A stretch of 64,000 nt of DNA, taken from contig CANKJK010000006.1 of assembly GCA_947482665.1 (NCBI GenBank), positions 1-64,000 on the forward strand, given 5' to 3'. The notes under the pieces are model-generated. The model had not been told where the DNA came from and did no database searches. It saw only the letters and a list, made by a program, of their open reading frames with translations. How positions within the stretch are numbered: position 1 is the stretch's first letter; every line of letters begins with the position of its first letter. Shown here piece by piece: positions 3,840 to 26,324 of this stretch. The DNA is from Acidobacteriota bacterium. GTDB taxonomy: Bacteria; Acidobacteriota; Vicinamibacteria; Vicinamibacterales; UBA2999. The position numbers were made by a program, and so were the translations under genes.

Positions 3840-4855
3840 AGAAGACTCGTATCCTCGCGCTCGTCCACGACCACCTCGTGCCTCCCGCCGATACGACCGG
3901 CATGGATGTCGTCAACGCTGAATGGAAGATGGAGCACGACGTCATCGTGTCGCTGCAGGAACGCGGTCACGACGTCGAGGCGCTCGGGGTCGACGACGAC
4001 CTCGCGAGCATCCGGCGCACGGTTGGCCGCTTCAAGCCGCAGATCATCTTCAATCTGATGGAAGCCTTCGCGGATATCACCACGTTCGACCAGAACGTCG
4101 TGAGCTACTTGGAGCTGCTTCGCGTGCCCTACACCGGGTGCAACCCTCGCGGCCTGATGCTCGCGCGGGACAAGGGGCTGTCGAAGAAGCTGCTGGCGTA
4201 TCACCGCATTCCAGTGCCGGACTTCTTCGTGGTGCCGCGCGGGCGGACGGCGAAGCTGCCGAAACGCCTGACCTTCCCGCTCATCGTGAAGTCGCTCTTC
4301 TACGAAGCGTCGGTCGGCATTTCCCAGGCGTCGGTCGTCGAATCCGAAGAGCAGCTCCACCGGCGCGTACAGTTCATCCACGAGCGTGTGGGCACGGCCG
4401 CAATCGTCGAGCAATTCATCGACGGGCGTGAGCTCTATGTCGGTGTCATCGGCAATGACCGACTCCGCGTCTTCCCGGTCTGGGAGATGTCCTTCTCGCG
4501 GATGCCCGACAACCGGTGGAAGATCGCGACCGAACGGGTGAAGTGGAGCGACCAGTACCAGAAGAAGCACGGCGTCACCACCGACGCGGCCACGCTCGGC
4601 GAGGCCGACATCGCCCGGATCTCGCACATTGCGACACGCGTGTACCGGGCACTGGATCTTTCCGGGTACGCCCGCATCGATCTCCGGATGGACGCCTCCG
4701 GTGGCGTGTACGTACTGGAAGCGAATCCGAATCCCAATCTGTCGTACGGCGAGGACTTCGCCGAGTCGGGCGAAAAGGCGGGCCTGTCTTACGAGGAGTT
4801 GCTGGAGCGGATCGTCGCGCTCGGGCTTAAGTGGGTGCCGGAGCGGACCGGATAA
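3836..4855 (+). CDS. ATP-grasp ligase, D-alanine-D-alanine ligase-like
   Basis: A 339-residue cytosolic ATP-grasp enzyme. The N-terminal Rossmann-like part (ILALVHDHLVPP..., IIFNLMEAF) and the Tyr-Thr-Gly-Cys-Asn segment resemble the Ddl fold. The ATP-grasp core has FPLIVKSLFYEASVGISQASVV, VEQFIDGRELYVGVIG, and the metal-binding end VLEANPNPNLS. The family joins a carboxylate to an amine through an acyl-phosphate. It is unlikely to be the housekeeping ddl: the partner gene is a metallopeptidase, no mur or fts genes are nearby, and the middle region (FPVWEMSFSRMPDNRWKIATERVKWSDQYQKKHGV) differs from Ddl. The GTG start at 3836 overlaps the upstream stop. Confidence 0.8.
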   Translation: MKKTRILALVHDHLVPPADTTGMDVVNAEWKMEHDVIVSLQERGHDVEALGVDDDLASIRRTVGRFKPQIIFNLMEAFADITTFDQNVVSYLELLRVPYTGCNPRGLMLARDKGLSKKLLAYHRIPVPDFFVVPRGRTAKLPKRLTFPLIVKSLFYEASVGISQASVVESEEQLHRRVQFIHERVGTAAIVEQFIDGRELYVGVIGNDRLRVFPVWEMSFSRMPDNRWKIATERVKWSDQYQKKHGVTTDAATLGEADIARISHIATRVYRALDLSGYARIDLRMDASGGVYVLEANPNPNLSYGEDFAESGEKAGLSYEELLERIVALGLKWVPERTG

Positions 4856-4901: not shown

Positions 4902-5981
4902 TTACTGTGGGAACGAGGCAGGGACCTTGTCGTGGTACCCCTCTCCATTCAGGGCCTCCATGAAGGCCACCAGCGCATCAATCTCGGCATCGGTCAGCTT
5001 GAGCGGCTGCATCTTGGGATCAAGATGCGGGTTCTTCTCACCGCCCTTGTTGTAGAGCACCATCACATCACGCAGCGTCGCCACGGATCCGTCGTGCATA
5101 TACGGCGCGTGCTTCGCGACGTCACGTAGCGTGGGCGTCTTGAACGCTCCCGTGTCGGACTCATTCTTCGAGATCGCCGCCCGCCCGACGTCCTTGAAGG
5201 CCTTGGCTTTCGCGTCCCAACCCACTCCGAGGTTGTGGAACAGGCTGTCCGTGAAGTTGTTGCCAAGGTGACACTGGTTGCAGGCCCCCTTGCCGAAGAA
5301 GAGTTCGTGTCCCTGCTTCGCCTGGTCGGTGACGGCGGCCTGGTCCTTGTTCTTCCTCCAGCGGTCATAGGGGGAATTGCCGCTCATCCGGGTCCGTTCG
5401 TAGGCCGCGATCGCCTGCGCGATCCGTTCCTTCGTGACCTCTTCGGTTCCGAACGCCTCCTTGAAGTAGGCGCCGTACCCAGTGATGTTCTTGAGCGTCA
5501 TGACCATCGCCTCGTGGGTATTCCCCATTTCGATGGGATTGGCCACGGGCCCAAGGGCCTGATCCTCCAGCGACGACGCCCGGCCATCCCAGAAGAAATT
5601 CGGGTACAGGGTCACCGCGGCATTCAGGAAGGTCGGCGCCTTTCGCCCGCCCTCCTGGCCGTTAATGCCCGTCGAGTGGGGCGTCGGCTCGGAGAAGGCA
5701 TGCTCCGGCCGGTGGCAGGTCGCACACGCGACCGTGGCGTCCTTGGACATCCGCTTGTCATAAAAGAGCCAGCGGCCGAGTCGGACGCGTTCGGGTGTCG
5801 GCGTAGGATTTACGGCCGACAGCTTGATGTCCGTCCCGAGCGGCGCCATCGGCAGCGGCTGAATCGGGTTGTCTGCTTCCCACGCTGGGGTCGCTGCCAC
5901 CGGCTTGGGCTGTTCGGCGCTTCCGCACCCGGCCACGCCAATGGCCAGACCGAGCAGCCACACACACGAGATCTGTCGCAT
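4902..5981 (-). CDS. Di-haem cytochrome c peroxidase family lipoprotein
   Basis: A 359-residue exported di-haem protein of the CcpA/MauG family. Haem c sites are CATCH (followed by RPEHAFSE) and CNQCH (followed by LGNNFTD). Known members reduce hydrogen peroxide in the periplasm with electrons from small cytochromes. The start at 5981 (MRQISCVWLL) is preferred because GGAGG lies just upstream and the N-terminus becomes a lipoprotein signal with lipobox VAGC, so it is probably anchored to a membrane. It lies 31 bases downstream of the Rrf2-type regulator on the same strand and may share its transcript, which would put the peroxidase under nitrosative or iron-sulfur stress control. Confidence 0.9.
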   Translation of the reverse strand: MRQISCVWLLGLAIGVAGCGSAEQPKPVAATPAWEADNPIQPLPMAPLGTDIKLSAVNPTPTPERVRLGRWLFYDKRMSKDATVACATCHRPEHAFSEPTPHSTGINGQEGGRKAPTFLNAAVTLYPNFFWDGRASSLEDQALGPVANPIEMGNTHEAMVMTLKNITGYGAYFKEAFGTEEVTKERIAQAIAAYERTRMSGNSPYDRWRKNKDQAAVTDQAKQGHELFFGKGACNQCHLGNNFTDSLFHNLGVGWDAKAKAFKDVGRAAISKNESDTGAFKTPTLRDVAKHAPYMHDGSVATLRDVMVLYNKGGEKNPHLDPKMQPLKLTDAEIDALVAFMEALNGEGYHDKVPASFPQ

Positions 5982-6012
5982 GAATCCTCCAGAGTCAGTA
6001 CAGCCTCTCATT

Positions 6013-6468
6013 CTATCCGGTCAGCTCGTCTGACTGATGGCGGCGCCAGACCTTGATGAGCGCAGCCGCACGGGGCTCGAAATCCGCCAGCGTGTGGCCG
6101 TCGAGGACACCGAGGAACGCGGAGGTTGCGTGCTTGAGCACGCCCTTGAGGCCGCAGACCCCGTCAATCGGGCAGGTATTGGTCTCACGGTCAAAACATT
6201 CAACCAGGTCGAGGTGCGGCTCCGTGGCCCTGACCAGCGCACCGATATTGATGTCGGCTGGTGGCCGGCCAAGACGCACGCCTCCTGACCGCCCGCGCAC
6301 GCACTCGACCAAGCCCCGCTCCGACAGCCGCCGGACCACCTTGACGAGGTGATGATGGGACACGCCGTACGAGCGGCTGATCTCCTGGAGCGGCACGACG
6401 CGTGACGGGTGCGCGGTGAGATAGAGCAGAACGCGAAGCGAGTAGTCGGAAAACTGGGTCAGCTGCAT
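6013..6468 (-). CDS. nsrR: Rrf2-family iron-sulfur regulator, NsrR-like
   Basis: A 151-residue winged-helix repressor. The start MQLTQFSDYSLRVLLYL and the recognition region SYGVSHHHLVKVVRRLSERGLVECVRGRSGG are typical of NsrR. Three cysteines in VECFD...NTCPIDGVCGLKG match the [Fe-S] ligands with which NsrR senses nitric oxide. A good ribosome site (GGAGG, nine bases from ATG) supports the start at 6468. It is divergent from a multicopper oxidase and precedes a di-haem peroxidase; a dyad resembling the NsrR operator lies in the shared promoter. NsrR rather than IscR is inferred from the cysteine spacing and the operator; it could be another Rrf2 sensor. Confidence 0.82.
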   Translation of the reverse strand: MQLTQFSDYSLRVLLYLTAHPSRVVPLQEISRSYGVSHHHLVKVVRRLSERGLVECVRGRSGGVRLGRPPADINIGALVRATEPHLDLVECFDRETNTCPIDGVCGLKGVLKHATSAFLGVLDGHTLADFEPRAAALIKVWRRHQSDELTG

Positions 6469-6483
6469 GGCGCAACGCCTCCG

Positions 6484-6512
6484 TTGACAGCGGCGGACTT
6501 AAAAGTCATATT
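6484..6512 (+). promoter_or_regulatory. Sigma-70-type promoter for the multicopper oxidase
   Basis: A perfect -35 TTGACA (6484-6489) is followed after 17 bases by CATATT (6507-6512, four of six to TATAAT). It lies in an AT-rich island between the divergent regulator and the oxidase gene. The -10 is covered by the NsrR-like dyad, as expected for repression. Confidence 0.6.
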
Positions 6513-6525
6513 TACAATACATGTA
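6503..6525. promoter_or_regulatory. Candidate NsrR operator
   Basis: AAGTCATATTT, one base, then CAATACATGTA. Each half matches 8 of 11 positions of the known NsrR half-sites AAGATGYATTT and AAATRCATCTT, with the usual one-base spacer. It overlaps the -10 of the rightward promoter and lies about 35 bases from the regulator's own start, so autoregulation is possible. The match is by eye. Confidence 0.5.
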
Positions 6526-6652
6526 TTCGACCTCACGCTCGCGGGAAGTTTCACTTCTACTGGATTATTCCCCGCGACGCGTACCCCTCGCCTGCAGCCC
6601 GCTTGGGAATCCTCCCGATCCGGCGGGCACGGCGATTGCTGAGAGCCTTGCT

Positions 6653-8170
6653 ATGTCCATCCAGCCCACCTCCCTCGCTTCGCGCCGCGCACTCGTCTGC
6701 GCGGCCCTGGTGCTTACAGGTTTCTTCGGCGGTTCATCCGCCTGGGCCCAGGCCGCCTCGAACCAGCCGGAGGGCTGGGACTCGGAGCTCCGCCTCAAAG
6801 AAGCGGTCGACATCAACCCCGACCCCAAGATTGTCGAGGTCAACATTGACGCGCGCGTCGAGCGGATCACCATCGCACCGGGCAAGACAGTGGAGGCCTT
6901 CACCTATAACGGCCAGGTGCCAGGTCCGCTGATCCGTCTCAACGTGGGGGACCGCCTCATTGTCCACTTCACCAATCACCTGCCGATGGCGACCACCATT
7001 CACTGGCATGGCGTTCGAGTTCCGATTGAGATGGACGGGGTCCCCGGCATCTCCCAGCCAGAGGTGAAGCCCGGAGGCGCCTTCACATATGACCTCATGG
7101 TCCCGGATCCCGGCCTGTTCTGGTACCACCCGCACGTCGCCACCGCAGAGCAGGTGGGATTTGGACTCTACGCACCGCTCGTCGTCGAGGACCCCGCGGA
7201 GAAGAGCCGCCTGGGTGTTGTCGATGAAATCGTCGTCGTCCTGAGCGATATCGGCATCGATGAGAACGGCAAGCTCGAAGACCCGGAAAGCGGAGGCACC
7301 ACGGGAATGGCCTTTGGACGCGAGGGCAACATCGTGCTGGTGAACGGCAAGGTGGGCGGGATGGGCACGCTCAAGGCACGCAGCGGCGCTCCCATGCGCT
7401 GGCGGATCCTCAATGCCGCGAAGAGCCGCTACTTCTCTCTGGATCTGGACGGCCAACCGCTCGTCAAGATCGGCTCTGACGGGGGCCTGATCGAGTACCA
7501 GACCACGGCAACCAGCCTGGTCCTGGGTTGCGCGGAGCGGGTTGACCTGATCGTTCAGCCGAAGGGCTCGGCCGGAGGCGAACTGCTGCTCCACTCGTTT
7601 GTCTTCAACCGCGGGTACGGGTCCGTGGAGTTCCGGCCGGCCGAGGAACCATTGTTCAAGATTCAGTTCGCTGACGGCCCCGCCTACAGCGGGCCAGCCC
7701 CCACTCGTTCGACCAGAGCGATTACCCCGTACTCGGCCGAAGGCGCGACCCCGCTTGAACTGCTGCTCACGATCGATCAGCTCCAGGACGGGCGGTTCCA
7801 ATATGGCATCGATCACAAGCCGTACTGGACCGCAAAAGCCTTCACGGCGAAGCTTGGCGAAACCCAGATCTGGACCATCACCAACAAGACGCCGTGGTCA
7901 CACCCGTTCCATCTGCATGGGTTCTTCTTCCACGTGGTCGATGAGAAGGGGCAGGCGGTTCACCCCATCGAGTGGAAGGACACCGTGAACGTGCAGTTCG
8001 ACCAGACGGTCCGAGTCCTCGTGCGCTTCGATGAGCGGCCAGGGACGTGGATGATGCACTGCCACATCCTCGATCACGCCGATGGGGGCCTGATGGGCAC
8101 CATCCGGGTTGGCCTGCCGGACGACCCGCACGCCACGCACCTTCCCCACCCCCACGACTACAGGTTCTGA
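6653..8170 (+). CDS. Three-domain multicopper oxidase (laccase/CueO type)
   Basis: A 505-residue exported copper oxidase. All four copper motifs are present: HWHG (117-120), WYHPH (157-161), HPFHLH (417-422) and HCHILDH (469-475). Together they give a type 1 site and a trinuclear cluster, so the expected reaction is oxidation of a substrate (metal ion, phenol or cytochrome) with four-electron reduction of oxygen. It is not NirK, which lacks the full trinuclear set. At the axial position (Cys470 + 10) there is Leu480 instead of Met, which in known enzymes raises the redox potential. The start at 6653 gives a clean signal peptide ending SSAWAQA; longer in-frame ATGs would bury it. Its promoter is probably NsrR-controlled. 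Confidence 0.9.
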   Translation: MSIQPTSLASRRALVCAALVLTGFFGGSSAWAQAASNQPEGWDSELRLKEAVDINPDPKIVEVNIDARVERITIAPGKTVEAFTYNGQVPGPLIRLNVGDRLIVHFTNHLPMATTIHWHGVRVPIEMDGVPGISQPEVKPGGAFTYDLMVPDPGLFWYHPHVATAEQVGFGLYAPLVVEDPAEKSRLGVVDEIVVVLSDIGIDENGKLEDPESGGTTGMAFGREGNIVLVNGKVGGMGTLKARSGAPMRWRILNAAKSRYFSLDLDGQPLVKIGSDGGLIEYQTTATSLVLGCAERVDLIVQPKGSAGGELLLHSFVFNRGYGSVEFRPAEEPLFKIQFADGPAYSGPAPTRSTRAITPYSAEGATPLELLLTIDQLQDGRFQYGIDHKPYWTAKAFTAKLGETQIWTITNKTPWSHPFHLHGFFFHVVDEKGQAVHPIEWKDTVNVQFDQTVRVLVRFDERPGTWMMHCHILDHADGGLMGTIRVGLPDDPHATHLPHPHDYRF

Positions 8171-8182
8171 GGGGGCCCCGCA

Positions 8183-8188
8183 TATACT
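8183..8188 (+). promoter_or_regulatory. -10-like TATACT
   Basis: TATACT lies ten bases before the ATG at 8199 in the short gap after the oxidase gene, so the haem protein may have its own promoter with almost no leader. No -35 or ribosome site is visible. Confidence 0.35.
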
Positions 8189-8198
8189 GGGCGCGACC

Positions 8199-9500
8199 AT
8201 GCGTCGCGCCCATTTTCTGCTGACCTGCGGAGTGTTCGCTGCCAGTGCGACACTGCTGATTGCCCAGCGACCGCCGTCCGATCCGGTGTCCACCCGACAC
8301 CCGGCCATCGACTACCTCAATAAGCCCGTCACCGACCCTGTCGCCACGCTGAACCAGCGGATCATCAACGGCGACGTGCAGCTCAGCTTCGAACCTGGCG
8401 AGCGCGGCTATCTGAAGTCCGTCCTCCAGGCCCTGAAGATCCCGGTCGAATCCCAGATGCTGGTCTACTCCGAGACGAGCCTGCAGTCCGAGCACATCAC
8501 GCAGAAGACCCCCCGGGCGCTCTATTTCAATGACACGGTGTCGGTCGGCTGGGTCCGAACCGCGGACACGCTGGAACTCGCGGCCTGGGATCCTCAGCAG
8601 GGCCTCCAGTTCTATCAGGTGGATCAGAAGCCCGCCCAACGGCCGCACTTCAACCGGTCGCAGCGGTGCCTCGAATGCCACGAAGGCAACATGACGATGG
8701 GGATTTCAGGGATGCTCACCATGAGCATGCTCCCTCTGTCCGACAACCCGAACGACTACGCGCAAGGCTGGGCCGTGGACCAGCGCACGCCGTTTGAGGA
8801 CCGCTGGGGCGGCTGGTTCGTGACCGGCGCCGCGGTCCCGACGCGCCACCTGGGGAACGTGCCCGTCTACCACGTGAAGAAGAGCGGCGTGCGCGCGGCG
8901 GTGACACCGAAGCTGACGTCGGTGAGTGGCGCCATTGACGCCACGGCGTATCCGACGGCCCAGAGTGACGTCGTCGCGCTGATGGTGTTCAACCACCAGA
9001 CCTTCATGACGAATCTCATCACCCGCCTGAGCTGGGTGACGCGCGTGCAGGACTGGGATCGGCTGCACCCCGCTGCGCCGGTGAAGCAGGCGTCCATGCA
9101 GGCCTCGGACGACGCGGTCGCCAACGTCGTCTCCGAGCTCGTGGACCATCTGCTCTTCGTGGACGAAGTCCCTCTGCCTGGCAAGGTGCAGGGCAATTCG
9201 GGCTATGCAGAAGTCTTCTCTGCCCAAGGTCCTCGGGACCCGAAAGGCCGGTCGCTGCGGGAGTTTGACCTGACCAAGCGGCTGATGAAGTACCCCTGCA
9301 GCTACCTCATCTACTCCCCGGCGTTTGACGCCCTTCCCGCCCGGGCCAAGGCCATGGTCTACGACCGGCTGTGGACGGTACTCTCAGGCAAGGATGCAGA
9401 CCCGGCGTACAAGAAGCTGACGGCCGCGGATCGGCAGGCCGTGATCGAAATCCTCCGCGACACCAAGCCGGATCTGCCAGCGACGTTCCGGCAGGGCTGA
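8199..9500 (+). CDS. Exported mono-haem protein of unknown function
   Basis: A 433-residue protein with a signal peptide (MRRAHFLLTCGVFAASATLLIAQ) and one haem c motif, CLECH at residues 157-161, followed by EGNMTMGISGMLTMSM, whose methionines could give the axial ligand. The remainder (WAVDQRTPFEDRWGGWFVTG, TNLITRLSWVTRVQDWDRLHP) is conserved-looking but I cannot name a catalytic family. It follows the copper oxidase by 28 bases and could deliver electrons to it. It ends one base short of the convergent cytochrome gene. Function is not assigned. Confidence 0.75.
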   Translation: MRRAHFLLTCGVFAASATLLIAQRPPSDPVSTRHPAIDYLNKPVTDPVATLNQRIINGDVQLSFEPGERGYLKSVLQALKIPVESQMLVYSETSLQSEHITQKTPRALYFNDTVSVGWVRTADTLELAAWDPQQGLQFYQVDQKPAQRPHFNRSQRCLECHEGNMTMGISGMLTMSMLPLSDNPNDYAQGWAVDQRTPFEDRWGGWFVTGAAVPTRHLGNVPVYHVKKSGVRAAVTPKLTSVSGAIDATAYPTAQSDVVALMVFNHQTFMTNLITRLSWVTRVQDWDRLHPAAPVKQASMQASDDAVANVVSELVDHLLFVDEVPLPGKVQGNSGYAEVFSAQGPRDPKGRSLREFDLTKRLMKYPCSYLIYSPAFDALPARAKAMVYDRLWTVLSGKDADPAYKKLTAADRQAVIEILRDTKPDLPATFRQG

Positions 9501-9501
9501 T

Positions 9502-9876
9502 CTACTCGGCTTTGGCCGCGATCGAGCGGAGATAGTTGACCAGGTTCCACGTCTCCGCTTCGTTGACCCGATCCTCCCAGGCCTCCATCCGCTGCCCTAC
9601 GCCCTTCTGGATGGCGACGAAGATCTCGCCATCGCTGCCACCATGGTCCCAGGTCGCGTCAATAAGACTGGGGCCCATACCCCCGCCGCCGGTCTTTCCG
9701 TGGCAACTCCGGCACAACTTCTGATACGTCTTCTCACCCGCCGCGACTGACTCCGAAGTCGCCGCGGCCGGATTCTTCAGTTTGGCCGCCTCGGGGTTGC
9801 CCTGGGCCAGGACCATCGCCGTCATGCCGAGTACCAGCATCGCAGCCGCCGCAGCCGCTGTCTTCCGAACGCTCAT
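9502..9876 (-). CDS. Small class I cytochrome c
   Basis: A 124-residue periplasmic mono-haem cytochrome. After a signal peptide (MSVRKTAAAAAAMLVLGMTAMVLAQ) comes CRSCH with KTGGGGMGPSL, and the axial methionine is probably in VGQRMEAWEDRV. The C-terminal helix WNLVNYLRSIA is typical of the fold. It is the last gene of the minus-strand operon that begins with the PSD/PSCyt protein, and it overlaps the upstream TPR gene by four bases. It most likely shuttles electrons between the large haem proteins and an oxidase; the partner is inferred only from position. Confidence 0.85.
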   Translation of the reverse strand: MSVRKTAAAAAAMLVLGMTAMVLAQGNPEAAKLKNPAAATSESVAAGEKTYQKLCRSCHGKTGGGGMGPSLIDATWDHGGSDGEIFVAIQKGVGQRMEAWEDRVNEAETWNLVNYLRSIAAKAE

Positions 9877-17056: not shown

Positions 17057-17320
17057 GTGGACTGGTCAGACCTTCGCCGCAACGCTTCGGACTTCTTCCA
17101 CGGCGCCGCATACGGGCGCTACGAAAAGGAGATCCGCCGGCAGACGCTGGAACTGCACGACCTGTTCATGCTGCTCTGCTATCTGGAACTGATGGGTGTC
17201 CCCAACCCCGCCACGCTGTATCTCCTCGATATGTATCCCCTGCTGCTGGACGAGTTCCACAAGTGGCACCGACGGATGGGCATGAAACACTCCCCCCTCG
17301 ACTCGATGGCGTGCTGCTGA
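17057..17320 (+). CDS. Small CC-tailed protein next to ArsA-like ATPase (cory-CC-star-like)
   Basis: An 87-residue cytosolic protein. Its centre, LHDLFMLLCYLELMGVPNP, is hydrophobic, and it ends in Met-Ala-Cys-Cys before the stop. A terminal double cysteine and location directly before an ArsA/Get3-type ATPase match a small family I recall as 'cory-CC-star', of unknown function. The end DEFHKWHRRMGMKHSP is rich in histidine and methionine, so metal binding is possible. The gap to the ATPase is one base. The family name is from memory; function is not known. Confidence 0.7.
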   Translation: MDWSDLRRNASDFFHGAAYGRYEKEIRRQTLELHDLFMLLCYLELMGVPNPATLYLLDMYPLLLDEFHKWHRRMGMKHSPLDSMACC

Positions 17321-17321
17321 C

Positions 17322-18242
17322 GTGACCTCCTCCATGCGACATCTGCTCGACCGGCACATCCTGTTCTTCGGGGGCAAAGGCGGCGTGGGCAAGACCACCT
17401 GCGCGGCCGCGGTGGCACTGGCCGCCAGCCGAACCGGACGCCGCGTCCTGCTCGTCTCCACGGACCCTGCGCATTCGACATCCGACTCGCTGGGCATCCA
17501 GATTCCAGGCACGGAAACCACGGTCGCCCCCTCGCTCACCGCCATGGAGATCGACCCCGCGGCAGAAGCGCGGCAGTACATCGCCGACGTGAAGACCCGC
17601 GCCCTCGCGCTCTTCGGAGACGGAGCCACCAAAGCCCTCGGCCAGATTGACCTCGCCGGCGCCATGCCCGGCATCGAGGACGCAGCCCTGTTCGACCGGC
17701 TCTCCAGGCTCGTCTCCGAACGCGCCGACCACTACGACCTGGTCGTGTTCGACACGGCACCGACGGGGCACACCCTCCCCCTCATCCGCATGCCGGAGGC
17801 CATGAGCGGCTGGCTCCACGCGCTGGCCGAGTCACGCCGCGCCATGCTCCCGAAGGACCGGCTGGAGGAGGACCCCATCATCGCCAGCCTCGAGGAACGG
17901 CTGGCCCGGCTCCGGACCTTCCGAGAGCGGCTGACCTCGCGGACGACGACGGCGTTTGTCTTTGTCCTGATTCCGGAGAAGCTCCCGATCGATGAGACGG
18001 CCAGGGCCCTGGAGCACCTTGCCGGCAGCGGCGTGGAGGTGGCCGGCCTCATCGTCAACCAGGTCATTCCAGAGTCGGCGGACGGCGCCTTCATCGACGC
18101 CAGACGGATCCAGGAGCGCGCCCATCTGGAGCGCATCGACCGGCAATTCGCCAGCTACCAGCGCGTGCGGGTTCCCCGCCGCCCCGCCGACGTACACGGC
18201 GTCGAGGATCTCACGGCCATCGCTGCCGTCCTCTTTGGCTGA
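17322..18242 (+). CDS. ArsA/Get3-family ATPase
   Basis: A 306-residue soluble ATPase of the ArsA/Get3 class. It has the deviant Walker A motif GGKGGVGKTT (17-26), the switch I region STDPAHSTSDSLG, and the switch II region FDTAPTGHTLPLI. Only one ATPase half is present, so it would act as a dimer. No arsenite pump (arsB), arsenate reductase or ArsR is nearby, so arsenite export is unlikely. Its only close partner is the small CC-tailed protein one base upstream. It may handle membrane proteins, as Get3 does, or a metal or thiol cargo; this is inference. GTG 17322 or ATG 17334 could be the start. Confidence 0.88.
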   Translation: MTSSMRHLLDRHILFFGGKGGVGKTTCAAAVALAASRTGRRVLLVSTDPAHSTSDSLGIQIPGTETTVAPSLTAMEIDPAAEARQYIADVKTRALALFGDGATKALGQIDLAGAMPGIEDAALFDRLSRLVSERADHYDLVVFDTAPTGHTLPLIRMPEAMSGWLHALAESRRAMLPKDRLEEDPIIASLEERLARLRTFRERLTSRTTTAFVFVLIPEKLPIDETARALEHLAGSGVEVAGLIVNQVIPESADGAFIDARRIQERAHLERIDRQFASYQRVRVPRRPADVHGVEDLTAIAAVLFG

Positions 18243-18304: not shown

Positions 18305-19861
<1,557 letters not shown>

Positions 19862-19871
19862 CACGAACCGG

Positions 19872-19896
19872 GCGGGGCGCCCCGATGGCGCCCCGC
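19872..19896. terminator. Hairpin between convergent genes
   Basis: GCGGGGCGCC, loop CCGAT, GGCGCCCCGC: a perfect ten-pair stem 11 bases after the activator's stop and 14 bases from the stop of glnB on the other strand. No T-tract, so a two-way terminator of the GC-only kind is proposed. Confidence 0.55.
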
Positions 19897-19909
19897 GGAC
19901 CACGCGCCG

Positions 19910-20239
19910 CTAGGCGTCCCGTTCGCCCGTGCGGATGTGGTAGTTCAGCTCGACCGGCAGGACGAACACGCGACCGTCACCGATCTCACCCGTGCGCGCC
20001 GCCGTGATCACCGCCTGGACCACGGAGTCCAGCAGGTCATCGGCCACCACCACTTCAATCTGCATCTTGGGAAGGAGGCTCACGTTGTACTCCTTGCCGC
20101 GGTACACCGCGGTGTGCCCCTTCTGACGCCCGTGCCCACGCACTTCGGTGACCGTCATGCCCGACACGTGCAGCTTGTCGAGCGCATCCTTGATGTCGTC
20201 AACCTTGTTCGGGCGCACGATCGCCTTAATGAGTTTCAT
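19910..20239 (-). CDS. glnB: Nitrogen regulatory PII protein
   Basis: A 109-residue PII signalling protein that senses 2-oxoglutarate, ATP/ADP and, through modification, glutamine. The T-loop RQKGHTAVYRGKEYNVSLLPK is intact, with Tyr51, the residue uridylylated by GlnD, and Tyr46. The C-terminal loop TGEIGDGRVFVLPVE is also conserved. It overlaps glnD by 14 bases on the same strand, so enzyme and substrate are made together. amtB, whose product PII normally blocks, is 5 kb away. GlnB versus GlnK cannot be decided. Confidence 0.95.
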   Translation of the reverse strand: MKLIKAIVRPNKVDDIKDALDKLHVSGMTVTEVRGHGRQKGHTAVYRGKEYNVSLLPKMQIEVVVADDLLDSVVQAVITAARTGEIGDGRVFVLPVELNYHIRTGERDA

Positions 20240-22784
20240 AACCGTCCTCCAGCATGCGTTCCAGGTCCACTTGCAGCGCCATCTGGGCGGCGTCGGTCAA
20301 CTTGGCCCCCGCCCTGGTGAGATGGAAGACATCGATGGCCTTCTTGCCTTCCGTTGAGAGCAGCACGAGATCGACATCGCATCCGTGCTGTGAGAGCACC
20401 CGGCTGATCCGGTGCGCCAGCCCCAGCGCGTCCTCGGTCACGATTTCCAGAACCGTGTAGCGCTGTGAATATTCATTATCGAGCGTAATGACCGGAGCCA
20501 CCCGCCTGGGGCCGGCCTTGCGGAGCACGCTCTTCGCCTTCCGGCGGAGCAGCGCCGTCACATCCTGCCGCCCGGCCACGACCTCCCGCAGGGTCTCTTC
20601 CACCTGCGCGGTGGCGTCCGGGTTGAAGCGGAAGAAACCCTCGTGGTCCGTAAACTGAAAGACATCGACCACGAGTCCGGCCGGGCTGGTCATCGCGCTC
20701 ACGCGCAGAATGTCCATGCCGTAATACGACAGGACACCGCAGATGTTCGAGAAGAGACTGGGCTTGTCGAGCGTCACGACGGTGAGCTCCCACGCGTCGC
20801 GTTTCGGCTCCAGAAACAGATGGACCTCGTCCGCATGGATGTCACGGGCGAGCCGCACGTGTCGATAGATGCGCTCCGCGTCGAACATCGCCAGATAGCG
20901 CCGCGGGAATCCGTCGAGCATGCGGGTCAGCTCCGCCGCATCGATATCCTCCGGACGGCTCGACTGCAGCGCCTCGGCCGCATCACGGCCCTCCAGCACG
21001 TCGTCGCCGTAGCCACGGGTGATCTGGTTGTAGGCGTCCATATACAGACGCCACAGCAGTTCTTCCTTCCAGGGCGTCAACGTTTCTGTGCTGACCGCCT
21101 CGACATCCACGACGGTCATCAGGCAGAGGAGCTTCAGGCGCTCTTCCGTGCCGACCAGCGTGGCGAACTGGCGCACCACGACAGGATCGTCCGTATCTCT
21201 GCGGAACGCTGCCTTGGACATCTGCAGGTGCTGCCCAATCAAAAACAGCACCGTCTGCCGATCTTCCCCAGTGATGCCCAGCCGCTCCAGCATGGGCTGC
21301 GCCATGCGGACGCTCTCTTCGTCGTGCTTGTCGTCCTTCCACTTGCCGACGTCGTGATAGAGCAACGCCAGCACCAGCAACTCCGGCGCACGCAACTCGG
21401 CGACGAGTGACCCCATGCGCTCGCGTCCCCTGGGAGGATTCACGAGCCGCTCGAGTCCGCGGATGGTCAGCAGCGTGTGCTCATCCACCGTGTACTTGTG
21501 GAAGAAGTCCCGGATCACCAGTCCTGAAATCGCCTTGAACTCCGGAAAGATCGCGGGCAACAGGCCGCAGTCATGCATCTCGGACAGACGGGCATACAGG
21601 CCAGGGGCGGGCCGCAGCAGCGACATCAGCCGACGGCGGTCCTCCTCTGTGGGCATGAAGTCCACGGGCGCATAGCGGACGACATTCCGCTCAAACACGT
21701 CCAGGGTTTCATACGACACCTTGGCATTGTGCTCGGCCGCGCGAGCAAACACGTGCAGCCACGACGCGGGCTCCCGGCCGGCTCGGTCCGCGTCAACAAA
21801 GCGCACGCCGTCGGCCGAGAGTTCAAGATTCAGCCCCAGCGGCACACTGGTCGTGTCGCGTTCCCCGCTGCCAGCCTGGGAACGCGCGCGATCGAGCGCC
21901 CGGTTGACCGCCCGGCTGTGGCGAAAGTAGGCACCCATCAGCGCTTCCACGCGCTGCTGGCGCTGACCGCCCGGATACCGCAGCCGGTCTGCCACGGTCT
22001 CCTGCAGCTCATGCGTCAGGACATTGAGATTGCGGCCCTGCTCACGGTGCAGGATCGCCCGAATCCGAAGCAGCATGTCCTCGGCCTGGTCGAGCCTGTC
22101 CAGTTCCGTGTCATCAGTCCCGGTACGGTGCCCGGTCATCGCGTGGAAGATTCGGGCGGCTTCGATGTCGCGCAGCCCGCCAGGCGCATCCTTGATGTCT
22201 GGTTCCAGTTGATACATGGTGCGGTTGAACCGCGCATACCGCTCGTCACTCAGTTGGAGCAGCGCCTCCAGGACGGCCTCACGGCCAGCCTGGCCCCCGG
22301 CGTCGATGCGAGCCCGCATCTGCTCGAAGACGCCCGCATCACCCGCGACGAATCGTGCCGTCTGCAGGGCCAGCAGGTATTCAGGGTTGTCCGGATCAAC
22401 GGTGTCAAAGTCCACCAGGCTCCGGACGTGATGCCCCACCGCCAGCTTCAGATCCCACAGGGGCAGGAGCACGGCATTGACGACTCGTTCCTCGGCTTCC
22501 CGGACCTCTTCCGCAAACACCAGGAGCAGGTCGACGTCGGAATACAGGCACTGAGCCCGGCGCCCATATCCGCCCACGGCGACCAACGCCACACCGGTCG
22601 ATGCGGGCGTGAGCGCCCTCGCGGCGATCACCCGCAGAATGCCGTCGAGAGCCTCGGCGAGCCTCTGATGCGCCCGACGCCCGCCGGCGCCACGCTCGGC
22701 ATTCGAGGCAAACTCCTCCTGAGCCTGGCGCAAGACCAGCCGTAAATCCGGAGCAGACGAGGTCACAGGCATGGGGTTCGACAT
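20226..22784 (-). CDS. glnD: [Protein-PII] uridylyltransferase / uridylyl-removing enzyme
   Basis: An 852-residue bifunctional glutamine sensor that adds UMP to PII when nitrogen is short and removes it when glutamine is plentiful. The nucleotidyltransferase site is GGYGRRAQCLYSDVDLLLVF, with two aspartates. An HD domain follows (ALLYHDVGKWKDDKHDE), and the C-terminus has two ACT domains (WELTVVTLDKPSLFSNICGVL and YTVLEIVTEDALGLAHRISRVL). Start at 22784 (MSNPMPVTSS) is chosen over longer extensions because homologous sequence begins shortly after; 22772 is an alternative. Upstream lies a 428-base gene-free stretch. Confidence 0.93.
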   Translation of the reverse strand: MSNPMPVTSSAPDLRLVLRQAQEEFASNAERGAGGRRAHQRLAEALDGILRVIAARALTPASTGVALVAVGGYGRRAQCLYSDVDLLLVFAEEVREAEERVVNAVLLPLWDLKLAVGHHVRSLVDFDTVDPDNPEYLLALQTARFVAGDAGVFEQMRARIDAGGQAGREAVLEALLQLSDERYARFNRTMYQLEPDIKDAPGGLRDIEAARIFHAMTGHRTGTDDTELDRLDQAEDMLLRIRAILHREQGRNLNVLTHELQETVADRLRYPGGQRQQRVEALMGAYFRHSRAVNRALDRARSQAGSGERDTTSVPLGLNLELSADGVRFVDADRAGREPASWLHVFARAAEHNAKVSYETLDVFERNVVRYAPVDFMPTEEDRRRLMSLLRPAPGLYARLSEMHDCGLLPAIFPEFKAISGLVIRDFFHKYTVDEHTLLTIRGLERLVNPPRGRERMGSLVAELRAPELLVLALLYHDVGKWKDDKHDEESVRMAQPMLERLGITGEDRQTVLFLIGQHLQMSKAAFRRDTDDPVVVRQFATLVGTEERLKLLCLMTVVDVEAVSTETLTPWKEELLWRLYMDAYNQITRGYGDDVLEGRDAAEALQSSRPEDIDAAELTRMLDGFPRRYLAMFDAERIYRHVRLARDIHADEVHLFLEPKRDAWELTVVTLDKPSLFSNICGVLSYYGMDILRVSAMTSPAGLVVDVFQFTDHEGFFRFNPDATAQVEETLREVVAGRQDVTALLRRKAKSVLRKAGPRRVAPVITLDNEYSQRYTVLEIVTEDALGLAHRISRVLSQHGCDVDLVLLSTEGKKAIDVFHLTRAGAKLTDAAQMALQVDLERMLEDGYETH

Positions 22785-23212
22785 GAAGGCATAGGCCGAG
22801 GGCAGCTCCAGACTTAGGCTACCCCACACACTCGCCCGCATGCTAAGACCATGAGCAAGAGGCGCTCCACGCTCGGTGCGGCCATGCCGATGCGGCCGCA
22901 CCAGCCATGAAACCGTCTGTGCGCAACGACTTGTAGCAAGCCTTGCGCAGAAATGCGGGCCACAAGCATCTGAACATGATTGTGCACTGGCAGTTCAACT
23001 GGCACGAACATGTCGGAAACTGGCGCCTGCCCTGCTCGGGCGGTGTTTGACCACGGGACCGTCCGCGCAATAGGCTAGCGCCGGCCGGAACACCGCCGCT
23101 TCAGCCGACAGACGCCGCACCCGCGGACAGGCCTTCACCATCGTCCGCGGACGACTTCACTGCACGGAAGAGACGCACTCGGCGCAGCGTCCGCCCGGCC
23201 ACGAGGTTCCAG
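22785..23212. other. Gene-free stretch between divergent glnD and the SulP gene
   Basis: No open frame here looks real. On the minus strand, at 22950-22935, CTGCGCAAGGCTTGCT resembles a sigma-54 site (perfect TTGCT at -12, but TG instead of GG at -24), about 150 bases before glnD. GTGCAC and TGGCACG lie at 22982-23007. A 9-base inverted repeat (GGCGGTGTT at 23039 and AACACCGCC at 23089) has a 41-base loop. GCGCAA and TTGCGC also pair around 22921-22948. These are weak, and I cannot assign a function. Confidence 0.4.
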
Positions 23213-24703
23213 ATGCATCGCCACCCATCCATGTTCGGGCACGCCGCCAGCGACGGCGTGGCGGGCATCGTGGTGTTCCTCGTCGCCCTGCCCCTCTGCC
23301 TTGGGATTGCCGTGGCGTGTGGCGTGCCGCCCATTTCCGGGCTCATGGCCGGTGTCATCGGCGGGCTTCTTATCCCCTGGATCAGCCGCTCCCCGCTCTC
23401 GGTCAGTGGCCCGGCCGCAGGGCTCACCTCGATCGTGCTCGCGGAGATCGCGCACCTGGGCGGCCTCCCGCCCTTTCTGACGGCCGTCATCATCGCGGGT
23501 GGCCTGCAGGCGGCCTTTGGCCTCCTCCGCGCCGGCCGGCTCGCGGATGTCGTCCCATCAGCCGTCGTCAAGGGCATGCTGGCCGCCATCGGCATCACGA
23601 TTGTCCTGAAACAGCTACCAGCAATGGTCGGCGCAACCGGCAGCCTCATGACCATCACTGCCGGTTTTCATCCCGGAGCGGCGGCCGTGGGTGCGCTGTC
23701 GCTCCTCATCCTGTACGGCTGGAAGCGCACGCCCCTGGCACGCCTCACATTCGCGTCGCCGGCGCTGGTCGTCGTCATCATTGGCAGCGCCCTCGCACAG
23801 GCCTTCTCGAAGAGCGCGGGCCTGGCCCTGGCCGCGGATCATTTCGTGCGCGTCCCACCAGGCGGTCTGGCCTCCCTGGCCGCCGCGCTGCCTCGCCCGG
23901 ACCTCACCGCGTTCGCGCATTCCGCGACCTGGATCACCGGCGTCACCGTCGCCGTTGTGGCCAGCATCGAAACACTTCTCTCACTCCAGGCCGTCGACCG
24001 GCTCGACCCTCTCAGACGTCACAGCCCGCCAGACCGGGAATTGCTGGCACAAGGCCTGGGCAACATCGTCTGCGGCCTGGTCGGAGCGCTGCCGGTGACA
24101 GCGGTCATCATCCGCAGCGGAGCCAATGTCGCGGCGGGCGCCCGTGAGCGGTTTTCCGCGCTGGTGCACGGATTGCTCCTGCTCGTGGCCGTCCTGGCGG
24201 CCGGTCCGCTGCTCAACCGGATTCCACTGCCCTGTCTCGCCGCCGTGCTGATCCAGGTCGGCCTGAGCCTGGCCCGCCCGGCGCTCTTCCGCCTGCAGGC
24301 ACGACTCGGCTGGTCCCAGTTTCTGCCCTTTGTGCTGACGATCGCCGCGGTCCTTGCCTTTGATCTGCTCAAAGGCGTCGTCGCCGGTGTCGTCATCGGC
24401 ATCGGCTTCGTGCTCTATGAGAACTCCCGTCGGGCGGTCGTGGCAGAAAGGGATGCCGAGACCGGGATTCTGAGAATCCGCTTCCGGCGCGACGGCACGT
24501 TCGTATCGAAACCAGGCATCGTGGCGGTGCTGGACGAGGTGGATGACGGCGAACGTGTCGAGATCAACGGGGCCGACGAGTACATCGACCACGACGTCAA
24601 AGAAGTGCTGGCCCGGTTCCGGGCAGAAGCCGCTCACAGGCAAATCACGGTGACGATCCGTGGCGTCGACATGACGCACGCCGAGGGCACCGGCGGACAC
24701 TGA
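23213..24703 (+). CDS. SulP-family inorganic anion transporter
   Basis: A 496-residue inner-membrane carrier. The N-terminus has the SulP pattern DGVAGIVVFLVALPLCLGIAVACGVPPISGLMAGVIGG and the second signature SPLSVSGPAAGLTSIVLAEI; ten or more hydrophobic segments follow. The cytosolic end (from about residue 400) is short and resembles a STAS domain without the usual conserved start. Members move sulfate, bicarbonate or other anions with sodium or protons. The substrate is not clear; the HPSMFGHAASD start and short tail recall bicarbonate-type members. ATG 23213 or 23231 may be the start; no strong ribosome site is visible. Confidence 0.88.
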   Translation: MHRHPSMFGHAASDGVAGIVVFLVALPLCLGIAVACGVPPISGLMAGVIGGLLIPWISRSPLSVSGPAAGLTSIVLAEIAHLGGLPPFLTAVIIAGGLQAAFGLLRAGRLADVVPSAVVKGMLAAIGITIVLKQLPAMVGATGSLMTITAGFHPGAAAVGALSLLILYGWKRTPLARLTFASPALVVVIIGSALAQAFSKSAGLALAADHFVRVPPGGLASLAAALPRPDLTAFAHSATWITGVTVAVVASIETLLSLQAVDRLDPLRRHSPPDRELLAQGLGNIVCGLVGALPVTAVIIRSGANVAAGARERFSALVHGLLLLVAVLAAGPLLNRIPLPCLAAVLIQVGLSLARPALFRLQARLGWSQFLPFVLTIAAVLAFDLLKGVVAGVVIGIGFVLYENSRRAVVAERDAETGILRIRFRRDGTFVSKPGIVAVLDEVDDGERVEINGADEYIDHDVKEVLARFRAEAAHRQITVTIRGVDMTHAEGTGGH

Positions 24704-24879
24704 GGCCAGCGCCCTATGGGACCGGCCTCACTTCAGACATATTTGTCGCCACCCAAGATCTCACGGCCACGAATGGCCGTGGCCACGAGAGAGGCAAACG
24801 CGGGCGCGACCCGGCCCGACCCGAACGTCTGCGCGCGAGCGCCAAAGCCAGACATTCCCGTCGATTCCATCGGTCACAG

Positions 24880-24893
24880 GCACAGCAATGTGC
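24880..24893. promoter_or_regulatory. Candidate activator site (NtrC-like dyad)
   Basis: GCACA-GCAA-TGTGC. Read as GCAC-N6-GTGC it resembles the NtrC site (GCAC-N7-GTGC) with one base less. It lies about 120 bases before the predicted amtB RNA start, the usual distance for a sigma-54 enhancer. Confidence 0.35.
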
Positions 24894-24983
24894 ATTGACG
24901 ACGGTCTGCAACCGCCGCGCACTTCCAAGCCTAACCCATTGCCGTTCAGACACTTGTGGTCCGCGCTTCCCCGCACAGGCATC

Positions 24984-24999
24984 GGGCCTCCTTCTTGCT
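24984..24999 (+). promoter_or_regulatory. Candidate sigma-54 (-24/-12) promoter of amtB
   Basis: GGGCCTCCTTCTTGCT: GG at 24985-24986 and GC at 24997-24998 have the required 10-base spacing, GGC matches at -24 and TTGCT is perfect at -12. The A-C-G following GGC in the consensus is not matched. It lies 108 bases before amtB, fitting the nitrogen-related sigma-54 activator nearby. Confidence 0.5.
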
Positions 25000-25009
25000 A
25001 ATTCGTGTG

Positions 25010-25031
25010 GTGGCGTTCATGGGAACGCCAC
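25010..25031 (+). other. Stem-loop at the 5' end of the amtB leader
   Basis: GTGGCGTTC, loop ATGG, GAACGCCAC: a perfect nine-pair stem that begins at the expected RNA start of the sigma-54-like promoter. It may stabilise the transcript or bind a regulator; no T-tract follows, so it is not a terminator. Confidence 0.5.
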
Positions 25032-25106
25032 TCGGAAACTCGCGGCGCTTGCCAGTTCAGTTCGATGGCAAGCGCACGCCACGACGCCTTCGCATAGAGG
25101 TCCACG

Positions 25107-26324
25107 ATGACACTCAACGCCGCCGACACCGCCTGGATGTTGGTCTGCACGGCCCTGGTTCTCCTGATGACCCCGGCCCTCGCGTTCTTCTACGGCGGCC
25201 TGGTCCGCGCCAAGAACGCCCTGAACACCATGATGATGAGCTTCGCCGCCATCGGCTTTGTCGGGGTGGCGTGGGCGGTGTTGGGCTATTCGCTGGCCTT
25301 CGCGACCGGCAACGACTGGATTGGCGACTTCTCGCGCTTCGCCCTCAAGGGCGTCGGGCTCGAGGCCCAGGGCACCATCCCGCACTATCTCTTCATGGCC
25401 TACCAGGGCACATTCGCCATCATCACGGCGGCCCTGATTTCCGGCGCCATTGTGGAGCGCATGCGCTTCCCGGCTTACCTCACCTTCATTACGCTCTGGT
25501 CGCTGGTGGTCTACGCCCCGATCGCACATTGGGTCTGGGGCGGCGGCTGGCTCTTCAAGATGGGGGCCCTCGACTTCGCCGGCGGGACGGTGGTGCACGT
25601 GAACGCGGCGGTCGCGGCACTCGTGGCCGTCATCATGGTCGGCCCGCGCAGGGACTACGGCAAGGCGGCACTCCTCCCCCACAATGTGCCCTTCACGCTG
25701 CTGGGCGCCGGCCTCCTCTACTTCGGCTGGTTTGGCTTCAATGCTGGCAGCGCGCTTGCCGCCAATGCGATTGCCGGATTGGCGTTCACCACCACCTTCC
25801 TGGCACCCATGGCGACACTGGTTGTCTGGACCTTCCTGGACGTCATGCGAGGCAAGTCGCCGACCGCCGTCGGAGCCGCCACCGCGCTAGTCGTGGGCCT
25901 GGTCGCCATCACGCCAGCTGCCGGGTTCATTGGCCCCATGAGCGCCCTCGCCCTCGGCGGTATCGCGGCAATCCCCAGTTACTTCGGCCTGCAGTGGCGC
26001 GCGAAGACATCGCTCGATGACTCCCTCGACGTCGTCGCGGCCCATGGCCTTGGTGGCACGGTCGGCGCACTGCTCACGGGCGTGTTCGCCCAGAAAGCCC
26101 TCAACGGCGTGCAGGACGGCGCGCTGTTCGGGAATCCCGGCCAGCTGGGCATTCAGGCCGCGGCGGTGGGAGCGGCCATCCTCTACAGCGGTGCCATGAC
26201 GGCGATTCTGTTGAAGGTCATCGGCCTTGTCACGCCGCTTCGCGCCAGTGAAGAGGAAGAGGCCATTGGCCTGGATGTCAGCCAGCACGGCGAGGAAGCC
26301 TACATCCACGGGGACGGCGTTTAG
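25107..26324 (+). CDS. amtB: Ammonium transporter
   Basis: A 405-residue inner-membrane channel of the Amt/MEP/Rh family with about 11 membrane helices. Signatures include FFYGGLVRAKNALNTMMMSF, the Amt motif DFAGGTVVHVNAAVAALV, and the second pore-histidine region DVVAAHGLGGTVGALLTGVF. It admits ammonium when external levels are low and is normally closed by unmodified PII. AGAGG seven bases before ATG 25107 supports the start. The C-terminal tail is acidic (ASEEEEAIGLDVSQHGEEAYIHGDGV) and reaches the cytosol, where PII acts. It has its own candidate sigma-54 promoter and is followed by a strong terminator; unlike in many bacteria it is not directly beside glnB. Confidence 0.95.
   Translation: MTLNAADTAWMLVCTALVLLMTPALAFFYGGLVRAKNALNTMMMSFAAIGFVGVAWAVLGYSLAFATGNDWIGDFSRFALKGVGLEAQGTIPHYLFMAYQGTFAIITAALISGAIVERMRFPAYLTFITLWSLVVYAPIAHWVWGGGWLFKMGALDFAGGTVVHVNAAVAALVAVIMVGPRRDYGKAALLPHNVPFTLLGAGLLYFGWFGFNAGSALAANAIAGLAFTTTFLAPMATLVVWTFLDVMRGKSPTAVGAATALVVGLVAITPAAGFIGPMSALALGGIAAIPSYFGLQWRAKTSLDDSLDVVAAHGLGGTVGALLTGVFAQKALNGVQDGALFGNPGQLGIQAAAVGAAILYSGAMTAILLKVIGLVTPLRASEEEEAIGLDVSQHGEEAYIHGDGV

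Follow-up and report, generated by a model that had tools for sequence, protein, structure and literature searches.

The window, the 64,000-nucleotide stretch of Acidobacteriota DNA analysed here, contains a two-gene unit in which a small protein ending in two cysteines is followed directly by an ATPase of the ArsA/Get3 type (Table 1). Both open reading frames are real at the coordinates listed, as in the preliminary description. The small gene starts with GTG and closes with codons for ACC followed by TGA, giving the C-terminus ...DSMACC; its product has no match in a Pfam search and lies above the curated cut-off of 80 bits for NF041419 ('cory-CC-star protein'; E 1.5e-28). For the ATPase the scores are 256 bits (PF02374) and 266 bits (TIGR00345). 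Given the GTG start of the ATPase gene, the gap between the genes is the single base described earlier, and the alternative in-frame ATG (MRHLLDRHILFFGG...) would widen it to 13 bases. The P-loop, switch and DTAP motifs are all retained in the ATPase, and the DTAP motif is described in a 2010 paper by Castillo and Saier (PMC2963123).

Table 1 Features of the gene pair in the window (His and Cys residues numbered in the small protein, Lys and Asp in the ATPase).
Feature	Coordinates	Strand	Evidence
Small partner protein, 87 aa, CstX CC-ending branch (NF041419 cory-CC-star)	17057..17320	+	NF041419, 98.6 bits
H68-x-x-H71 codons, His pair fixed in the CC branch	17258..17269	+	42/43 CC-branch sequences, 0/19 non-CC relatives
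Terminal C86-C87 dithiol codons	17312..17317	+	43/43 aligned CC-branch sequences, 0/19 non-CC relatives; 80/80 loci
Single-domain ArsA/Get3-type ATPase, 306 aa, alternative ATG start 17334	17322..18242	+	PF02374 E 5e-76, TIGR00345 E 3.5e-79
Deviant Walker A GKGGVGKTT with signature lysine K19	17373..17399	+	K19 and glycines invariant in 51 partner ATPases
Switch II (DTAP) motif DTAPTGHT	17751..17774	+	Sequence; D144 invariant in 51 partner ATPases

The ATPase had been described as lone and without arsenic genes, and the absence of arsenic genes holds for the part of the window covered by the ars check (6.5–28.7 kb). Neighbours with recognisable domains there include a multicopper oxidase, cytochromes, PSD/DUF1552 proteins, an ankyrin protein, a sigma-54 activator, PII, GlnD, a SulP-type permease, Amt and an isocitrate/isopropylmalate dehydrogenase-family protein, and none of them is an ars gene. 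No cstA gene is present in the flanks of the pair. The adjoining segment at 18305–26324 (GAF/sigma-54 activator, PII, GlnD, SulP-type permease and Amt) forms a nitrogen-control neighbourhood, and relatives showed no conserved association between it and the pair. The genome does carry a genuine ars cluster on another contig (C2, locus L166, C2:80000-96000, positions 5776–9841), which encodes an ArsM-like methyltransferase, an aquaporin, a CC-ending ArsD with a fused CMD domain, and a double-domain ArsA. Acr3 (TIGR00832), a candidate for the As(III) pump of this genome, has no match in it.

The two genes are an inseparable unit. Within the window's family, 26 of 43 genomes encode the small protein and all 26 have the ATPase directly downstream, which means that the pairing is not due to chance. 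An orthologue of the ATPase (E <= 1e-40) is found in exactly the same 26 genomes and in 0 of the other 17, where only weaker hits occur, mostly ParA-type or ArsA-type. We also scanned 84,980 species with conserved peptides of the small protein and kept 80 loci; even though the C-terminus was left out of the scan patterns, all 80 independent loci end in CC followed by a stop codon. The preliminary description had proposed a two-gene system outside ars operons, and had named loss of the terminal Cys-Cys in relatives and residence inside ars operons as the observations that would count against it. The Cys-Cys is conserved throughout the branch, and no ars gene lies beside the pair in any locus examined. 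Below the NF041419 cut-off there is a larger family without CC (ends DAMF, LHGV, EGWA and TFDVG), in which the same small helical protein and its partner ATPase are kept, and the C-terminal tails differ completely between the branches of the small protein. A literature search by family name returned nothing relevant. Two kinds of database record drew attention in the survey. A CC-star-like stretch with 47% identity occurs at 4010–4213 of MT836486.1, a 10-kb unannotated 'Bacteriophage sp.' record that is possibly a bacterial contig labelled as phage, and three metagenome-assembled genomes titled Cyanobacteria or Acidimicrobiia (loci L074, L091 and L101) contain pairs of the Acidobacteria-like window type, an indication that these bins are mislabelled.

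The terminal cysteines of the small protein do not vary alone. Of 43 aligned CC-branch sequences, 42 keep H68, 42 keep H71 and all 43 keep C86 and C87, while none of these four residues is present in 19 non-CC relatives, so that the CC end and the HxxH motif are co-conserved, fixed together in one branch. This co-conservation makes a role as metal/thiol adaptor plausible, which was one of the two roles offered for the small protein in the preliminary description; the other, that it is the cargo of the ATPase, fares badly given that the CC is absent from the wider family. An AlphaFold model (pLDDT 77, pTM 0.42) predicts a two-helix hairpin (H3-45 and H51-73) with a flexible tail, and no useful PDB match was found by sequence or fold. 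Hydropathy peaks at residues 36–54 rather than at the C-terminus, with a KD19 value of 1.33 that is below a normal transmembrane helix.

The partner missing from the two-gene reading is a CstA-family transporter, the constant third partner in relatives, which was already published in 2010 (PMC2963123). CstA adjoins the pair in 42/42 gamma-type loci, usually directly upstream, in genera and phyla that include Pseudomonas, Halomonas, Alkalimonas, Pseudidiomarina and Gemmatimonadota. The order 'carbon starvation protein A / cory-CC-star protein / ArsA family ATPase' is also annotated on plasmids of Pseudochrobactrum, Paracoccus and Cytobacillus, with one hypothetical gene interposed in the Cytobacillus operon. 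Castillo and Saier reported 26 CstA-ArsA operons, 24 of them with a ~90-aa protein named CstX, found that the CstA, CstX and ArsA trees co-evolve, and listed Alkalilimnicola, Idiomarina and Pseudomonas among the members of their clusters 14–18 (PMC2963123). These genera overlap with our loci, and CstX, like the small protein, is a ~90-aa protein encoded directly before a single-domain ArsA homologue with no ars genes; on genera, size and gene order the small protein is therefore almost certainly CstX. The pair thus belongs to a known kind of module, and the window copy is one that is unlinked from the transporter. It differs from the operons in PMC2963123 in lacking CstA, and at the operon level the window branch contradicts the claim made there that CstX never occurs without CstA. 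The 2010 paper also describes CstX as a 'single TMS' protein, whereas the window protein is a predicted soluble hairpin with a peak hydropathy that argues against such a segment; the portion of the paper available contains no discussion of the CC end. Our literature search found no interaction or transport data for CstX systems and no experimental test of the CstA-CstX-ArsA module.

The association with CstA extends to divergent relatives. Among 14 loci below the NF041419 cut-off for which several kb were read (a set that includes L181, which does end FCC), CstA is upstream in 12, and in 8 two small proteins are followed by two ATPases. Since the small protein and the ATPase have been duplicated in parallel, one small protein is suggested to serve one ATPase subunit. 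In L172–L177, L182 and L183, CstA, two CstX paralogues and two ATPase paralogues are encoded in a row, likely a heterodimer version of the CstA-CstX-ATPase system. Locus L181 (G099:C2, 7018–8262) encodes a CstX relative that ends ...DFCC, lacks both histidines and precedes its ATPase; the gene ahead of the pair there reads as a P-type ATPase rather than CstA. In L180, L184 and L062–L064 a gene for a predicted membrane protein of ~155 aa, without Pfam or NCBIfam match, either separates CstA from the small gene or immediately precedes the latter.

Window-branch ATPases form a clade (support 99/95) that is sister to the CstA-linked CC clade (80/83), and no CstA was found beside the pair in 36 of 38 window-branch loci, nor any other constant third gene in the branch. 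At the remaining two sister loci (L079 and L090), a CstA gene of the window genome's own type (75–78% identity over the aligned part) adjoins the pair in divergent orientation, with ~150–200 bp between it and the small gene; at L079, whose family comprises three genomes, the contig breaks off within CstA, and at L090 the CstA reading frame is disrupted after ~86 codons. The window genome has a single CstA, on contig C27. CstA is present in 24 of 25 CC-star genomes tested in the family and in 8 of 8 further window-branch genomes, but it is also present in all 29 well-assembled family genomes, which makes co-occurrence uninformative here; genome G007, at 98% completeness, carries a CstA of this same type and lacks both CC-star and the ATPase. 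In the CstA tree the window genome's protein falls outside the CC-linked clade, near CstAs of genomes without CC-star. A division of the family's CstAs into types A and B does track CC-star, but phylogeny is a confounding factor, and elsewhere type A is found where CC-star is missing. Because the window CstA is unlinked, co-occurrence is uninformative and the protein lies outside the CC-linked clade, we regard the assignment of CstA as partner as strong for the family and moderate for the window copy. One cysteine is invariant in all 74 aligned CstA sequences, and a second occurs in 33 of 34 CC-star-linked CstAs and in no other group (residue 303 of the window-genome CstA, residue 443 of the gamma CstA); we treat both as leads only. 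No useful PDB relatives of CstA were found by sequence.

We interpret the pair as probably a CstX and ArsA-homologue module that serves a CstA-family (pyruvate/peptide) transporter. Across the family it is highly probable that such pairs work with CstA-type transporters, and it is likely, at a lower level of confidence, that the unlinked copy in the window does so too. Gene linkage, co-duplication, residue conservation and the absence of ArsA and Get3 hallmarks are observed here; all interactions among CstX, the ATPase and CstA, and what the tail does, are inferred. CstX would be a helical hairpin, either soluble or facing the membrane, and would connect the two other proteins by docking to the homodimer of the ATPase and to the cytoplasmic face of the transporter. 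ATP binding and hydrolysis would switch the ATPase dimer and, via CstX, change the activity or maturation of CstA. Within the CC branch this switch may depend on a metal or redox state of the terminal dithiol, to which the two histidines perhaps contribute; we put such a step somewhat short of an even chance. In the window genome the one CstA, encoded on contig C27, would be the likely transporter and would work in trans.

The resemblance of the ATPase to ArsA and Get3 offers other readings. In a metal or metalloid chaperone pair of the ArsD/ArsA kind, the CC protein would hand its ligand to the ATPase. ArsD-ArsA likewise combines a small cysteine-rich partner with an ArsA-fold ATPase, CC is likewise the C-terminus of the true ArsD of the window genome, HxxH is co-conserved with CC in the small protein, and in E. 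coli the G3E metallochaperone YjiA adjoins yjiX. However, the small protein shows no similarity to ArsD, distant CstX proteins have neither CC nor HxxH, and partner ATPases have no conserved cysteine, the only one in the window protein being Cys27 in the P-loop region. Unlike ArsA (~590 aa), the window ATPase has one domain rather than two, scores 144 bits against a cut-off of 650 for TIGR04291, lacks the metalloid-site cysteines C113/C172/C422 and is found outside an ars context, with no pump or regulator genes in the 6.5–28.7 kb checked. We consider chaperoning of a metal or metalloid by the pair improbable. An arsenic role was rejected, as there is no conserved ATPase cysteine and the true ars cluster lies on the other contig. 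Tail recognition, raised in the preliminary description, would mean that the small protein is carried as cargo, held by the ATPase at its C-terminal tail. The ATPase does share with archaeal TRC40 and yeast Get3 the fold, the deviant Walker A and a PGI-type motif after switch I, and its model (pLDDT 94) has archaeal TRC40 3zq6 as best PDB match (38% identity, TM 0.84). It differs in having no Zn-binding CxxC, as ESDCEFCNARR in 3zq6 aligns with ESADGAFIDARR, and the insert between the client-binding helices is short, with a mean hydropathy of -1.25, and is hydrophilic in all 51 aligned partner ATPases. The insert is the stronger argument, given that some true Get3 proteins also miss the CxxC (PMC10248533). 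With ArsA cysteines, Get3 CxxC and hydrophobic insert all absent, both arsenite activation and tail-anchor chaperoning are unlikely; for the small protein as tail-bound cargo, which has no clear transmembrane tail and belongs to a family where protein and ATPase persist without CC and with completely different tails, we see hardly any chance.

Two further explanations accept the link to CstA, at least in origin, and differ in what the ATPase does or where the pair went. Castillo and Saier proposed that ArsA homologues energise CstA through CstX (PMC2963123), as ArsA was proposed to energise ArsB. Linkage of the three genes and co-evolution of their trees, together with the intact P-loop, switch and DTAP motifs, fit this proposal. 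Against it, E. coli CstA is driven by the proton gradient and its uptake is blocked by protonophores (PMC7730263), and no NTPase gene lies beside E. coli cstA-ybdD. E. coli CstA nevertheless requires its small partner YbdD for pyruvate uptake (PMC5847655), and because it needs a partner and yet is proton-driven we favour control or maturation of CstA over pumping; we give that role about an even chance and regard ATP-driven transport as unlikely. Alternatively, the window-branch pair may have left CstA to serve another, unlinked membrane protein or other target. The missing linkage in nearly all window-branch loci, without another constant neighbour, and the CstA type of the window genome, which differs from that of the linked clade, point in this direction, whereas the two loci with a window-type CstA divergently beside the pair, and a small-protein core (PNP, Y55, P61, W70, HxxH and CC) that is identical in both CC subclades, argue against it. 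A departure from CstA thus seems quite unlikely, less probable than pumping although not as improbable as a metal chaperone.

A parallel is found in E. coli, where the partners of CstA and BtsT also end in CC (YbdD ...ARCC, YjiX ...MRCC). Among ten sampled YbdD/YjiX relatives one histidine is invariant and a second is present in nine, the C-terminus is CC in nine and CPC in one, and CstA lies next door in every case checked. Like the window system, CstA-YbdD and BtsT-YjiX-YjiA therefore combine a CstA-family protein with a partner that has a terminal CC and two conserved histidines, and btsT-yjiX is also followed by a gene for a P-loop NTPase, yjiA; this encodes a G3E GTPase, which prefers Zn(II), and not an ArsA-type ATPase. 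Against the 'KCU-star family selenoprotein' model both YbdD and YjiX give hits that fall short of the cut-off, and the annotation of two relatives reads 'CstA-like transporter-associated (seleno)protein'; a Cys-Sec ending is therefore probable for some of the relatives. Homology of CC-star to YbdD/YjiX (PF04328) is not detectable and the profile comparison is not significant; none of the 26 genomes tested that have a CstA-CstX system contains PF04328, nor does any of the 43 genomes of the family, that of the window included. The parallel itself is observed, and a shared chemistry would be one way to read it.

A supposed arsenic or tail-targeting pair is hereby reassigned to a widespread transporter module predicted in 2010. 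The comparison with E. coli also joins two facts as one question, namely the CC or Sec end of CstA partners and the client of the zinc-binding GTPase YjiA. A conjecture that would cover both, and that we hold doubtful, is that CstA-family transporters need a small partner with a terminal Cys-Cys or Cys-Sec (plus two histidines) whose metal or redox state is set by a SIMIBI-class NTPase. Such an arrangement would have arisen at least twice from unrelated proteins, once as YbdD/YjiX with the GTPase YjiA and once in the CC branch of CstX, where the NTPase is of the ArsA type, and the window lineage would run its CstX/ATPase pair in trans to CstA. The question raised is why a terminal-dithiol protein, often together with a P-loop NTPase, is kept beside CstA-family transporters.
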